Assembly (NCBI GenBank): GCA_944368815.1
Contig: CALVXD010000008.1
Location: 1-36,498 of the forward strand
Origin: an uncultured Bacilli bacterium
GTDB lineage: Bacteria > Bacillota_I > Bacilli_A > RF39 > UBA660
DNA length: 36,498 nucleotides
Direction of reading: 5' to 3'
Each line of letters opens with the position of its first letter. Position 1 is the stretch's first letter. The notes under the pieces are model-generated. The model was given only the letters and a program-made list of their open reading frames with translations, made no database searches and was not told the origin of the DNA. The translations under genes and the position numbers were made by a program. Positions 10,350 to 15,338 of this stretch are shown here, piece after piece.

Positions 10350-10775
10350 ATGGTTGTTAAATATACACAAAAAGAAAAAGAATTATTAGCAAGACTTATG
10401 CGTGCTGAAGCAGTTGGAGAAGGAGACCTTGGAATGCTTATGGTAGGTAATGTTGGAGTAAATAGAGTACTAGCAGATTGTTTAACTTTTAAAGATATAA
10501 CTACAGTAAGTCAAATGATATACCAATCTCCTGGCGGTTTTTCAGGAACATCTAGCTCATTATTTTATGGTAATCCAACAGACAAAGAATTACAATTAGC
10601 GGATAGAGTATTAAGAGGAGAATATTATTATCCTGCTACTAATGCACTATGGTTTTATGCTCCTAAAAAAGGAACTTCATGCACTGATACATGGTGGGAT
10701 CAAGATTTTGCAGGTAAATATAAAAATCACTGTTTCTATAAACCAGATCCTGGTATTTGTAAAGAACTTCACTAA
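10350..10775 (+). CDS. SleB/CwlJ-type cell-wall hydrolase
   Basis: 141 residues; the only plus-strand gene in the window. It matches the compact Hydrolase_2 domain of SleB and CwlJ, spore-cortex lytic enzymes that also occur in non-sporulating Firmicutes. Visible hallmarks: LLARLMRAEAVGEGDLGMLMVGNVGVNRV with the conserved Glu, the INRV-like turn, and the C-terminal LWFYAP and CFYKP segments. There is no signal peptide or membrane segment, as in CwlJ, so how it reaches the wall is unclear. A GGTGAT site precedes the ATG, and TATAAT boxes lie 12-22 bases upstream with no good -35. No sporulation gene is near, so a germination role should not be assumed. Confidence 0.85.
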   Translation: MVVKYTQKEKELLARLMRAEAVGEGDLGMLMVGNVGVNRVLADCLTFKDITTVSQMIYQSPGGFSGTSSSLFYGNPTDKELQLADRVLRGEYYYPATNALWFYAPKKGTSCTDTWWDQDFAGKYKNHCFYKPDPGICKELH

Positions 10776-10804
10776 AAAATGTATTTTAATAAAATACATT
10801 TTTT
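10774..10804. terminator. Bidirectional terminator between the SleB-like gene and truA
   Basis: A perfect palindrome: AAAAAATGTATTTT (10774-10787), 3-base loop, AAAATACATTTTTT (10791-10804). A-runs on one side and T-runs on the other let it serve both converging genes; the truA stop codon lies in it. Confidence 0.85.
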
Positions 10805-11526
10805 AAATATAAACCTTCTGGACTTGCTGTTTTACCAGCCTTAGTTCTATTTTGTTCTTTTAATATTGTAATAATTTCTTCACTTTTACGTTTACCTTCA
10901 CCAACTTCAATAAGAGTACCAACCATATTTCTTACCATGTATCTAAGAAAACCAGTTCCTACAAATACTAATGTTATTTTATTAACATCTTTTGTATCTC
11001 TAATTAAATTAGTCTGTGATAATGTTCTTACATAATCATCCTTTTCTTCATCTGTTTTTGTAAATGATTTAAAATTATGAGTTCCCTCTAAATATTTCAT
11101 GGCTCTTTCCATTTCTACTACATCTAATTTCTTATTATATTGATAAACATATTTTCTTTCTATCGGATCATATTCACCCATATTAATTAAATATACATAT
11201 TCTTTACCAATTGCATTAAATCTAGCATGGAAATCATCACTTACACGCTCTACTTTTTTTACATAAATATCTTCTGGCAATAGTGAATTCATACCTTTAA
11301 ATAAATTATCAACTGTTATATCTATATCCAAATCAAAATGTGCTCTTTGATTTAAAGCATGCACGCCTGCATCAGTTCTTCCAGAAGAATGAACATCTAC
11401 TTTTTTATTATCATTTATTTCTTTTAAAACTTTTTCTAATTCACCTTGAATAGTTCTCATTTTAGGTTGTTTTTGATATCCAGAAAACAAACTACCATCA
11501 TAAGAAAATGTTATCAAATAACGCAT
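10786..11526 (-). CDS. truA: tRNA pseudouridine(38-40) synthase TruA
   Basis: 246 residues, normal length. TruA isomerises uridines 38-40 in the anticodon arm of many tRNAs. The catalytic Asp52 is in HSSGRTDAGVHALNQ. Other family marks are the start YLITFSYDGSLFSGYQKQ, FHARFNAIGKEYVY, and FLRYMVRNMVGTLIEVG. It has its own promoter (11561-11589). Upstream lie two ATPase-like genes in the place ecfA1-ecfA2 occupy in other Bacilli, but ecfT, which usually sits between ecfA2 and truA, is missing. Confidence 0.97.
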   Translation of the reverse strand: MRYLITFSYDGSLFSGYQKQPKMRTIQGELEKVLKEINDNKKVDVHSSGRTDAGVHALNQRAHFDLDIDITVDNLFKGMNSLLPEDIYVKKVERVSDDFHARFNAIGKEYVYLINMGEYDPIERKYVYQYNKKLDVVEMERAMKYLEGTHNFKSFTKTDEEKDDYVRTLSQTNLIRDTKDVNKITLVFVGTGFLRYMVRNMVGTLIEVGEGKRKSEEIITILKEQNRTKAGKTASPEGLYLKNVFY

Positions 11527-11560
11527 TGTACTACCTCATTTCTGCATTAAATACAAGTTT

Positions 11561-11589
11561 ATTGTATCAATTTTAATATTATTTATCAA
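11561..11589 (-). promoter_or_regulatory. Promoter of truA
   Basis: TTGATA (11589-11584), a 17-base spacer and TACAAT (11566-11561) on the minus strand, about 35 bases before the truA ATG. Confidence 0.75.
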
Positions 11590-11612
11590 TACATTATACT
11601 ATATTTCCATAA

Positions 11613-12269
11613 TTATACATTTCTATAAATATCTTTCATTAATTCTTTAATATCAAATGTTGGTTCTAATTTAATGTTTTGTTTTTTTTCTACCAAAGAT
11701 ATAAATTCTAATATTTTTGGTAAAGGATAATTATTATTTAATAATGTTTCTTTAAAATTATATAAATAATTGCGCTTGTCATTATATATTATTTTGTTTT
11801 TATTATAAATTATTAAGTTATCACATTCTCTATACAATAAGTCAATATTATTAGTAATGATACAAATATTTTTTCTATATTCTCTAGATATTTTTTTTAA
11901 AATTTTTAATATTAAATTTACATTATAATCATCTAGATAAAGATTAGGATATACTAATATATAATTACTTCTATTATTAATTAATGACATAGCAATTAAT
12001 AACTTGTATTTATCACTATCACTAAACATAAAAGGATCATCATTTATCTTTTTTTCATTTAATCCTACCATTGCTAATGATTGATTAATTTTTTTATCAG
12101 ATATATTTTTAACACAATTTGTTTGAAAAAAAATTTTTAAAGATGGTGTTACAAATTTATTGTTATCAAATTTAATAATCTCCATATCATTTATATTCAT
12201 ATCTACTAAGACTTTTCTAAAATTAGTAAATTTATCTACAAATATACCATTTAATATTATTTTTTCCAT
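11613..12269 (-). CDS. Degenerate EcfA2-like ABC ATPase domain protein
   Basis: 218 residues. The layout is that of an energy-coupling-factor ATPase, but the nucleotide site is gone. The N-terminal part has no Walker A. The signature LSGGQ position reads FSDSD (82-86). Walker B is LVYPN (105-109) where LDEP is expected, and the switch histidine is Asn (ITNN, about 140). The C-terminal tail, LPKILEFISLVEKK then FDIKELMKDI, still resembles the EcfA tail. EcfA2 is normally about 285 residues, so the loss is mainly N-terminal. It overlaps the first ATPase-like gene by 13 bases and precedes truA, the standard ecfA1-ecfA2-ecfT-truA order with ecfT gone. The frame is open and intact, so it may be a retained scaffold and not a dead gene. 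Confidence 0.65.
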   Translation of the reverse strand: MEKIILNGIFVDKFTNFRKVLVDMNINDMEIIKFDNNKFVTPSLKIFFQTNCVKNISDKKINQSLAMVGLNEKKINDDPFMFSDSDKYKLLIAMSLINNRSNYILVYPNLYLDDYNVNLILKILKKISREYRKNICIITNNIDLLYRECDNLIIYNKNKIIYNDKRNYLYNFKETLLNNNYPLPKILEFISLVEKKQNIKLEPTFDIKELMKDIYRNV

Positions 12270-13036
12270 ATATCTTTTATCATCCTTTTTTCATCAACAT
12301 AAATTTCTTTTATTAAATCATACAATTTTAACTTTATAGATAAATCTACAATAAATGGTAATCTAATTGACAAATCGTTAAACAAATTATCTTTTTTGTC
12401 TACATCATTTATTGAACCATCAAAACATATCCTACCTTGACTTAATATTAAAATTCTTTTTGCATATATAATTCCATCTGCATTCTTACTAATAATTAAT
12501 ATCGTTTTCTTAAATACTCTTTGATACTTCTTTATTAATTTGTAAACAATATATTTATCACTACTATCCAACATATCTATTATTTCATCTATTATTAAAA
12601 ATTGATAATTTTCTAATAAACTTATAAATAAAAAAACTTTTATTTTATCCAATAAATGTAATTGATTATAATTATTATTACAAACTTCTAAAAGTTTATA
12701 ATCCTTTAAATAATAATCATATTTATCTCCAGACAACTCTTTTATTTTGTCTATTATATTTGTTAATTTACATTTATTAACTTTATCTTTGTCTATTATA
12801 TTTGTAAAGTTAAATATTTTATCTTTATTTTTGTTGTTAAGTTCTAATCCATTAATGTAAACATCACCATCACATGGATAACCATTTATTATATTAATCA
12901 AAGTAGTTTTTCCTGAATTATTTAAACCAATTAAATACAAAAAATCATTTTTCTTAACTTTCAAATTGAATTTATTAAATATATAACTTGTATTATACTT
13001 AAAAGACATATTCTTTATCTCTAATGCAGTAGTCAT
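12257..13036 (-). CDS. Divergent EcfA1-like ABC ATPase
   Basis: 259 residues. The start ALEIKNMSFKYNTSY is the usual ABC beta-strand, and Walker A GLNNSGKTT (37-45) is intact. Walker B LIIDE (147-151) is present, but the signature motif is LHLLD (126-130) in place of LSGGQ, the DEP Pro is Ile, and the switch histidine is Lys184 (IISKN). It can probably bind ATP but seems unfit for normal hydrolysis. The tail LPFIVDLSIKLK and DEKRMIKDIWKK matches EcfA1. In working ECF transporters EcfA1, EcfA2 and EcfT energise vitamin and metal uptake; here no EcfT or S-component is adjacent. ATG with GAAGGTG in front and a promoter at 13058-13086. Confidence 0.7.
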   Translation of the reverse strand: MTTALEIKNMSFKYNTSYIFNKFNLKVKKNDFLYLIGLNNSGKTTLINIINGYPCDGDVYINGLELNNKNKDKIFNFTNIIDKDKVNKCKLTNIIDKIKELSGDKYDYYLKDYKLLEVCNNNYNQLHLLDKIKVFLFISLLENYQFLIIDEIIDMLDSSDKYIVYKLIKKYQRVFKKTILIISKNADGIIYAKRILILSQGRICFDGSINDVDKKDNLFNDLSIRLPFIVDLSIKLKLYDLIKEIYVDEKRMIKDIWKK

Positions 13037-13088: not shown

Positions 13089-14144
13089 TTAGATTATACT
13101 TTTTGTATTATACATTTCTAAATCAGGTATTTCTTCTTCTAAATATATACCTATTTTTTTAGAATTTAAATTGTTTACCAATTCTTGTTTTGACACTTCT
13201 ACAAAACTTTTCTTTCTATAATTATAACTATAATGTCTATTATTACCAGTTATTAAAAGAAAATGTTCCTTATTACCATATATATCATTTATATATAAAT
13301 TATTAATAGTAATATCTTCACTAGAAAAATATTTTTTTAAGATACCATCTAATACAATCCCTAATTCTATTGGTCGTATATTATCTATATTCAATACCTG
13401 TTGAATTAATAACAATAGATGCTCTAAATCACAATTTCCTGATTTCATTATTTTTTTTATTTCATTATCAATTAAATCATTATTGTATATACCATGTATA
13501 TAACCAATCCTTTTATCTAATTCTAAATCATCATTATAATTAGAAAAATACATAGTTGAAAAACCACACTGTATATATGGAATATCTTTCATTAAATCTA
13601 ATATTAATACTTTATCATCAATTAATACTTTATTACATAAATATCCATAATCATTAGATAATATAATTTCACAATCAATATCTAATAAATTACATAAATA
13701 TTTTAATATTTTTACAATTGATATATTAGTTATTTTTCCAGTTGCTAAAGATCCCCATAAATTATTAATATTTCCTAAATTATTAAAAATAAAAGTTTCA
13801 TTTTTTTCTAATATAACATTAATATCATAACTCATTATTTTTCCTAATTTAATATACACATATCGCAATTTTTCTAAAGAATTTAACCCTGATGGCATAT
13901 CTTCTATAATCGATTTTACCCTTGTTTCCCCCATTATAAAAGTTTCGTAATCAACATAAATATAACCATTTAATTCATTAAATGATTCTGCATAAGAATA
14001 ATTTTTTCCCTTTTCAATAAAGTATGAGACAACTTCTCCATTAACTTTATCTAATAACAAATTTATATATTTAGTACTTTTATTTATTTTCTTAATATCC
14101 TCTAATTTTGATACACTACAAACTAATGAGTTATTCTTTTTCAT
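13089..14144 (-). CDS. Transglutaminase-like protein lacking catalytic residues
   Basis: 351 residues, no signal peptide. The middle part has the order of a bacterial transglutaminase-like domain: a YIKLGKIMSYDIN helix, NNLWGSLATGKITNISIVKILKYL where family members read GALVNGKAVCxGYA, then DIDCEIIL, then YLCNKVLIDDKVLILDLMKD where members read HAWNxVxxDGxWYxVDxTWD. The catalytic Cys is Asn (about residue 140) and the His is Tyr (about 168); only the Asp remains. It is therefore a likely pseudoenzyme, perhaps a binding protein. Start: ATG at 14144 with GGTGAG upstream; the longer TTG start at 14168 lies in the promoter. The gene lies upstream of the EcfA-like pair. The family call rests on pattern recognition only. 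Confidence 0.55.
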   Translation of the reverse strand: MKKNNSLVCSVSKLEDIKKINKSTKYINLLLDKVNGEVVSYFIEKGKNYSYAESFNELNGYIYVDYETFIMGETRVKSIIEDMPSGLNSLEKLRYVYIKLGKIMSYDINVILEKNETFIFNNLGNINNLWGSLATGKITNISIVKILKYLCNLLDIDCEIILSNDYGYLCNKVLIDDKVLILDLMKDIPYIQCGFSTMYFSNYNDDLELDKRIGYIHGIYNNDLIDNEIKKIMKSGNCDLEHLLLLIQQVLNIDNIRPIELGIVLDGILKKYFSSEDITINNLYINDIYGNKEHFLLITGNNRHYSYNYRKKSFVEVSKQELVNNLNSKKIGIYLEEEIPDLEMYNTKSII

Positions 14145-14159
14145 ACTCTCACCATTATA

Positions 14160-14189
14160 ATTATACAATAACGGAATAAAAAAAGTAAA
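14160..14189 (-). promoter_or_regulatory. Possible promoter of the transglutaminase-like gene
   Basis: TATAAT (14165-14160) with TTTACT (14189-14184) 18 bases upstream on the minus strand. The -35 lies inside the terminator arm of the preceding gene, and the mRNA leader would be only about ten bases. Moderate support. Confidence 0.4.
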
Positions 14190-14212: not shown

Positions 14213-14764
14213 CTAATCTAAATTAACATTATTACTTCTAGCTGAAGCTGTGATATAAGCACTAAAGGATTTATTCATAACAGAATTATCAACTTCATCT
14301 CCATTCAACCATATATATAAAGTAAAAGTTGTGTCAGTTGTAGTTAATAAATAATCTTCTATAAGATTTATATCGCTATTAGAATTAATGCCATTAAAAG
14401 TTCCACTTGCAACCGATGTAGAATCAGTATTTTTAAATAATTCCCATTTTAACCCCGAAACTGCTAAAGCTTGATCAATCGTCGTTACATGTAACTTTAT
14501 TGTAGCGAGTCCATCAACACTACTATCACTTTTTCTAATTTTTACTGAAGCACTTAATCCATTTTCTTTAGAAGATGAAGGCCTCAACGTTCCGTTTACA
14601 TCTTGACCTTTATCATAAATTATTTCCAATTTTCCTGAAGTTGCTGAATTAATATTATTTGTAGATTGTGATGTTACAAACCAAGCATAAGTAATACTGA
14701 AAGTTATTAAACATATTGTTAATACTATTAATATTATTATGGAATAATTAATAAATTTATTCAT
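14213..14764 (-). CDS. SipW-type secreted surface protein (TasA/CalY-like), second copy
   Basis: 183 residues. An N-terminal hydrophobic segment (8-27) ends in the TYAWF motif typical of SipW-dependent signal peptides, as in TasA and camelysin fibre proteins. The exported part is a beta-rich Ser/Thr/Asn-rich domain without cysteines, ending with YIWLNGDEVDNS then MNKSFSAYITASA. The same C-terminal pattern is in the neighbour at 14781 (RIWINETG then MGKSFSGKIKIS), so they are paralogues. No sortase motif or second membrane segment is seen. Fibre formation is inferred from the signal type; no SipW peptidase is in the window. It lies 16 bases after its partner. Confidence 0.75.
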   Translation of the reverse strand: MNKFINYSIIILIVLTICLITFSITYAWFVTSQSTNNINSATSGKLEIIYDKGQDVNGTLRPSSSKENGLSASVKIRKSDSSVDGLATIKLHVTTIDQALAVSGLKWELFKNTDSTSVASGTFNGINSNSDINLIEDYLLTTTDTTFTLYIWLNGDEVDNSVMNKSFSAYITASARSNNVNLD

Positions 14765-14780
14765 ATAACATCACCACCTA

Positions 14781-15338
14781 TTATTTTTTTATTGTACTTG
14801 ATATTTTTATTTTTCCAGAAAAACTTTTTCCCATTAATTCATTTTGTGAAACACCAGTTTCATTAATCCAAATTCTAAGTTCATAATTATAAGTTGAACC
14901 AACATTTATATTAGATAACTGTTTAATAGTTAAATCACTTCCTGTAATATCTGCACCTGTACCATTGTAAATTGGAGTTCCATTTTCCAATAATTGAATT
15001 TTAAAATCTGCAGTTTTTAAAGCTGAATCTATTGCTATTTGTGTCAAATCTATTGATATTGAAACATTGTAACCACTTAAATTATTTCCTGGATTAACAG
15101 TAAATCTACTTATCCCTGCTTTAGTAGGAACATCTGCTCCACTAATTGGAATCCCTGTTGTTATAGATACATATTCGCTTTGAGCATATAAAATAGTTAT
15201 ATCAGTATTAGCAGTCGTAGTATTAAAACTAGTTGAACTATTTGATAAACTATACCAAGCATAGGAGACTCCCATAAAACTTATTACGATAACGGAAATA
15301 GCAATAGTTAAAATTAAAATTAATTTTTTAAATTCCAT
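14781..15338 (-). CDS. SipW-type secreted surface protein (TasA/CalY-like), first copy
   Basis: 185 residues; hydrophobic N-terminus (5-25) ending in SYAWYSLS, the SipW-type export signal. The mature part is beta-rich and free of cysteine, with a C-terminal block (YELRIWINETG, LMGKSFSGKIKISS) shared with the following gene. First gene of a two-gene operon with a promoter at 15379-15407; AGGAG lies eight bases before the ATG. Probably a surface fibre or matrix subunit by comparison with TasA; overall similarity to TasA cannot be judged here. Confidence 0.75.
   Translation of the reverse strand: MEFKKLILILTIAISVIVISFMGVSYAWYSLSNSSTSFNTTTANTDITILYAQSEYVSITTGIPISGADVPTKAGISRFTVNPGNNLSGYNVSISIDLTQIAIDSALKTADFKIQLLENGTPIYNGTGADITGSDLTIKQLSNINVGSTYNYELRIWINETGVSQNELMGKSFSGKIKISSTIKK

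Follow-up and report, generated by a model that had tools for sequence, protein, structure and literature searches.

An eroded EcfA1-EcfA2 pair kept beside truA after loss of EcfT in RF39-type Bacilli, a candidate ATP-binding heterodimer

ABC ATPases are textbook engines, in whose dimers each ATP site combines the Walker A of one subunit with the signature of its partner, and the Q-loops of ABC transporters face the membrane subunit. The system closest to the locus described here is the group II ECF motor EcfA1-EcfA2 (EcfAA'; PDB 4huq, 5jsz, 8bms). Changing either catalytic Glu of an ECF module to Gln abolished ATPase activity and transport, and changing both left a closed dimer with Mg-ATP trapped in it (PMC10368641). 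Heterodimeric ABC exporters (TM287/288) offer a second point of comparison, since one of their two composite ATP sites is degenerate while the other hydrolyses ATP and drives transport. RF39 bacteria have reduced genomes in which vitamin biosynthesis is missing (PMC6784871). Our search of the open-licence literature found no report of EcfA pairs that lack EcfT, or of such a state in RF39.

Here we analyse a stretch of 36,498 nucleotides (the window) from the metagenome-assembled genome (MAG) of an uncultured gut Bacilli bacterium of the RF39/UBA660 type, which carries two overlapping genes, A1 and A2, upstream of truA. The pair resembles the group II ECF motor in its fold, in its order before truA, in the overlap of its genes and in the C-terminal helical domain, as well as in its best HMM and Foldseek matches. 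It departs from that motor in that EcfT and an S-component were not found in the window's genome, A2 is without Walker A, the signature, switch His and Q-loops are lost, and the scores lie far under the family cut-offs.

Identity of the pair and layout of the locus

The order on the minus strand is A1, A2 and then truA, with no open reading frame inside the gap that separates A2 from truA (Table 1). A preliminary description of this DNA had read the two genes as a decayed EcfA1-EcfA2 pair from which ecfT had been lost; its coordinates, open frames and 13-base overlap proved exact. It had also counted a promoter in favour of the pair, an argument that adds nothing, since promoter-like sites in the region (37) are no more numerous than in shuffled sequences (36.2 +/- 6.1).

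Table 1 Features of the truA locus, in positions of the window
Feature	Position	Strand	Evidence or remark
A1, eroded EcfA1, 259 aa	12257..13036	-	TIGR04520 E 2e-27; AF2 pLDDT 93.5; best PDB match EcfA1 8bms_A
A1 Walker A GLNNSGKT, intact	12905..12928	-	Lys kept in 62/68 EcfT-less genomes
A1 signature position, LHLLD in place of LSGGQ	12647..12661	-	
A1 Walker B Asp150-Glu151	12584..12589	-	Glu kept in the window's clade, lost in most EcfT-less genomes
A1 switch-His position	12485..12487	-	Lys in the window, Asn in nearest congeners
A1 C-terminal helical domain	12260..12373	-	best conserved part of A1 across the family
A1/A2 overlap, 13 bp	12257..12269	-	10 bp in most relatives
A2, eroded EcfA2, 218 aa, N-terminal Walker A part replaced	11613..12269	-	TIGR04521 E 1.5e-16; profile search CbiO 3gfo, EcfA2 4mki; AF2 pLDDT 94.2; Foldseek
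A2 signature position FSDSD	12012..12026	-	family consensus LSxSE; would face the ATP of A1
A2 C-terminal tail DIKELMKDIYRNV	11616..11654	-	identical in nearest congeners
Gap of 86 bp	11527..11612	-	position of ecfT in relatives that still have it
truA, anchor of the locus	10786..11526	-	TIGR00071, 214 bits

Among NCBIfam models, A1 fits TIGR04520 ECF_ATPase_1 best (96 bits, under the curated cut-off of 315 bits) and A2 fits TIGR04521 ECF_ATPase_2 best (60 bits, under the curated cut-off of 330 bits), the latter match spanning the second half of the profile only (positions 119-277). AlphaFold models of both proteins, built from alignments of relatives, reached high confidence, and when these were compared with the PDB by Foldseek, the top matches were nearly all ECF ATPases for A2 and mostly so for A1. 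A profile search with A2 likewise returned the ECF ATPases CbiO and EcfA2 as its first matches. Taken together, the HMM, Foldseek and profile matches establish that A1 and A2 are EcfA1 and EcfA2 by descent and no chance likeness; the identity first proposed is thus borne out, and structure prediction, which had been named as a check, places both models with the ECF ATPases and not with unrelated folds.

Measured against what defines an EcfA1, A1 has the best-matching family, the Walker A and the Walker B Asp (within LIIDE), and it lacks the signature and the switch His, as had been reported from the sequence, in addition to falling below the cut-off. For A2, the best-matching family and the ECF ATPase fold agree with EcfA2; the score is below the cut-off, the signature is a weak match, and the reported absence of Walker A was confirmed in the window.

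The loss of ecfT held up both at the locus and across the genome: neither PF02361 nor a sensitive profile built from 22 EcfT proteins of the same family found a match in the window's own genome, which leaves no case for an ecfT relocated elsewhere. Searches for S-components with PF12822, PF07155, PF09515 and PF02632 (RibU, ThiT and BioY included) found none in this genome either, although other or diverged S families could escape these profiles, and the families tested are rare across the whole bacterial family.

The truA locus across the family

We compared the truA neighbourhoods of 131 genomes of the family, mostly one per genus, together with the window's genome and five congeners (137 in all); these MAGs are incomplete, yet the locus is contiguous and repeated in many of them. 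The A1-A2 pair is present in 125 of the 137 genomes, 57 of which have EcfT and 68 no recognisable EcfT at the locus. A few genomes lack the pair at truA, two of them through a contig end, and in nine both the pair and EcfT are absent while truA is still there, so the function of the pair is dispensable.

In 63 of the 68 EcfT-less genomes A2 lies within 248 bp of truA, and in many the two genes overlap or nearly touch. The remaining five (G014, G077, G112, G123 and G138) carry a short hydrophobic open reading frame of 187-228 aa between A2 and truA; it is recognised by no EcfT profile and is probably an eroded EcfT. More than 100 relatives share the overlap of A1 and A2, which is 10 bp long in 58/68 EcfT-less genomes and in most EcfT-bearing ones.

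Mapped on the truA tree, in which many branches are weakly supported, the presence of EcfT changes about 20 times, and at least 8 of these changes are forced by well-supported branches. Loss of EcfT seems likelier than gain, the truA tree itself being silent on direction. Within one supported EcfT-less clade, 18 of 21 genomes retain the pair. When the losses of EcfT and of motifs were compared by a sign test on well-supported branches, the 6 pairs available were too few for significance. That EcfT was dropped repeatedly and the motor pair kept suggests reuse of the motor for a new job. Across the family as a whole, natural stages can be lined up: an ECF motor that is nearly canonical, a motor poor in hydrolysis whose EcfT is shrinking and, last, a pair without a membrane part. 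Labelling these pairs vitamin transporters in RF39 genomes would lead to wrong metabolic models.

Some genomes show variations on this layout. One genome counted as EcfT-less at truA (G146) does encode an EcfT, which belongs to a separate cluster away from truA. Both in this genome (L290 3076-4944) and in G112 (L291 3070-4895), the second ECF cluster consists of a short EcfT, one EcfA and a RibU/PF12822-like S-component, and despite it the truA-linked pair is degenerate and EcfT-less. In G149 (L105) a 293-aa open reading frame lies between A1 and A2, an interruption of a kind otherwise seen only in G139.

Selective erosion of the two ATP sites

For each pair, we scored two composite sites, site 1 being formed by the Walker A and Walker B Asp of A1 with the signature Ser/Thr of A2, and site 2 by the reverse combination. 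Among the 68 EcfT-less pairs, A1 still has its Walker A in 58 and the Walker B Asp in 63, whereas the catalytic Glu survives in only 6, a canonical signature in 4-6 and the switch His in a single one. A2, in turn, keeps Walker A in 13, and nearly all have Ser/Thr at the second position of the signature, with the derived consensus given in Table 1. The ATP-binding residues are retained at site 1 in 54/68 pairs and at site 2 in 9/68, and a hydrolysis-competent combination is found at site 1 in none and at site 2 in two. The difference between the Walker A motifs of A1 and A2 gives a Fisher value of 4e-15, a test that ignores relatedness and treats as independent rows that are not. A fairer view comes from counting clades: the EcfT-less genomes with the pair fall into 26 separate clades on the best tree (at most that many independent cases, as branch support is often weak); 22 of these clades mostly keep site 1 and 7 keep site 2. 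The state is thus family-wide and recurrent, and one ATP site is selectively kept, neither of which was part of the preliminary description.

There are exceptions and intermediates. The window's clade is unusual in having retained the catalytic Glu of A1, which makes slow hydrolysis possible there, and the congeners G003 and G006 fail the residue test for site 1. Among EcfT-bearing pairs, 16/57 are already without a hydrolysis-competent site, and in some relatives EcfT itself has diverged; the loss of hydrolysis may therefore precede the loss of EcfT. In two separate, functional-looking ECF clusters, the EcfA likewise has Asn or some other residue instead of the switch His, so that loss of this His alone is no proof of inactivity.

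Outside the ATP sites, conservation in EcfT-less pairs is strongest in columns of the C-terminal domains (Pro, Phe, Leu, Tyr and Trp in A1; Lys, Tyr, Pro and Phe in A2). The Q-loops are conserved where EcfT is present and lost where it is absent, and are the least conserved part of the EcfT-less pairs.

The reading we favour, and hold to be probable, is that an ECF motor, having lost transport and hydrolysis, was retained as a heterodimer that binds ATP without hydrolysing it and works with a new partner, the dimer, its ATP and its partner being inferred. EcfA1-EcfA2 would be the remnant of a group II ECF motor after the loss of EcfT and vitamin import. A1 and A2 would most likely form a cytosolic heterodimer joined by both C-terminal domains. 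In it, a single ATP would be bound where the signature serine of A2 meets the Walker A and Walker B Asp of A1; the other ATP site would be gone, hydrolysis would be absent or very slow, and the Q-loop surface toward EcfT would be lost. Given these losses, the dimer probably depends on ATP to serve, in a structural or regulatory capacity, a partner other than EcfT. By analogy with the catalytic Glu mutants (PMC10368641), the pairs of the RF39 family should at most bind ATP. The hydrolysis-dead 2EQ mutant of that study (PDB 8bms) would resemble A1-A2 in a dimer expected to hold ATP unhydrolysed; it is, however, a laboratory mutant with two ATP sites and EcfT, whereas A1-A2 represents a natural change with one site and no EcfT. 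The degenerate site recalls exporters of the TM287/288 type, from which A1-A2 differs in that neither site looks competent in most genomes and there is no membrane subunit. A wider proposal, which we put forward tentatively as somewhat less than an even prospect, is that an importer motor was converted many times independently within one family into a soluble, single-site, non-hydrolysing ATP-binding heterodimer whose action, as a regulator or a scaffold, depends on nucleotide; this would make it a transporter-derived pseudo-ABC pair. From the residues that are kept it can be predicted which half of the engine is still important, and the family would provide a natural test of ATP binding alone in an ECF ATPase dimer.

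Selection, rival explanations and neighbouring genes

The preliminary description left open whether the pair was reused or decaying, and named neutral decay as the outcome that would count against its interpretation. No such decay was seen. All six congeners keep the A1-A2-truA order and open frames, with neither stops and frameshifts in close relatives nor an omega near 1. Omega = 1 was rejected for A1 and A2 in every congener pair tested (codon models, LRT 55-138), in comparisons where dS is saturated and the pairwise omega values are hence unreliable as estimates. A neutral simulation run at half of the NG86 synonymous divergence produced means of 15.5 stops in A1 and 12.8 in A2, with open frames in 0/300 runs. 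Intact reading frames, codon models and simulation together exclude neutral decay of A1 and A2 and place both genes under purifying selection. Nor is there a genome-wide decay of ABC ATPases, which is contradicted by seven others in the same genome that have normal signatures.

The main rival, which we judge unlikely, is a slower decay, in which the ECF motor became useless after vitamin import was reduced and persists as a relic, still open under partly relaxed selection. It would account for bit scores that step down from near-canonical to eroded, for the shortened membrane reading frame at the position of EcfT in five genomes, as if EcfT were eroding too, and for the nine genomes that have lost the pair. 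A1 and A2 also evolve much faster than truA, with an NG86 dN/dS of about 0.3 against 0.05, values that are unreliable because dS is saturated. Against it stand the number of stops expected in the simulation and the rejection of omega = 1, along with the persistence of the pair throughout most of the supported EcfT-less clade and the uneven loss of Walker A between A1 and A2. Because erosion is selective by residue, the pattern favours reuse over slow decay, as far as a pattern can without proving function.

Less probable still is that the pair continues to drive a transporter whose membrane partner is encoded at another place and has gone unrecognised, being strongly diverged or unrelated. The combination of diverged EcfT and hydrolysis-poor motors in some relatives, the short membrane reading frames of the five genomes and the retained Walker A of A1 would fit such a partner, but the family EcfT profile has no match in the window's genome, EcfT-less pairs have lost the Q-loops, which make contact with the membrane subunit, and only 2/68 of these pairs have a hydrolysis-competent site. 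That A1 and A2 serve as an operon leader only, their translation being coupled to truA expression and their protein products irrelevant, is suggested by the close contact of A2 with truA in many EcfT-less genomes and is very improbable in view of residue-specific conservation at the ATP site of A1 and at both C-termini, the 86-bp gap in the window and the nine genomes that have truA without the pair.

Two neighbouring genes were considered for a link to the pair. Upstream of A1 lies a gene of 359 aa (13089-14168, minus strand) that is conserved both within the genus and in G043, G101 and G146; it has no Pfam, NCBIfam or PDB match and by eye recalls an inactive transglutaminase-like protein. 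Strict functional coupling to the pair is unlikely, since in G101 this gene adjoins truA and the pair is absent. A short-chain dehydrogenase is found upstream in 42 relatives, where the neighbours vary and make no case for a link. Further upstream in the window (14213-15338, minus strand) are two secreted proteins in tandem, 183 and 185 aa long and with YAWF/YAWY signal regions; they look similar by eye to the SipW/TasA type and have no NCBIfam match. On the other side of the locus, a cell wall hydrolase (Hydrolase_2, SleB-like; 10350-10775, plus strand) is convergent with truA.
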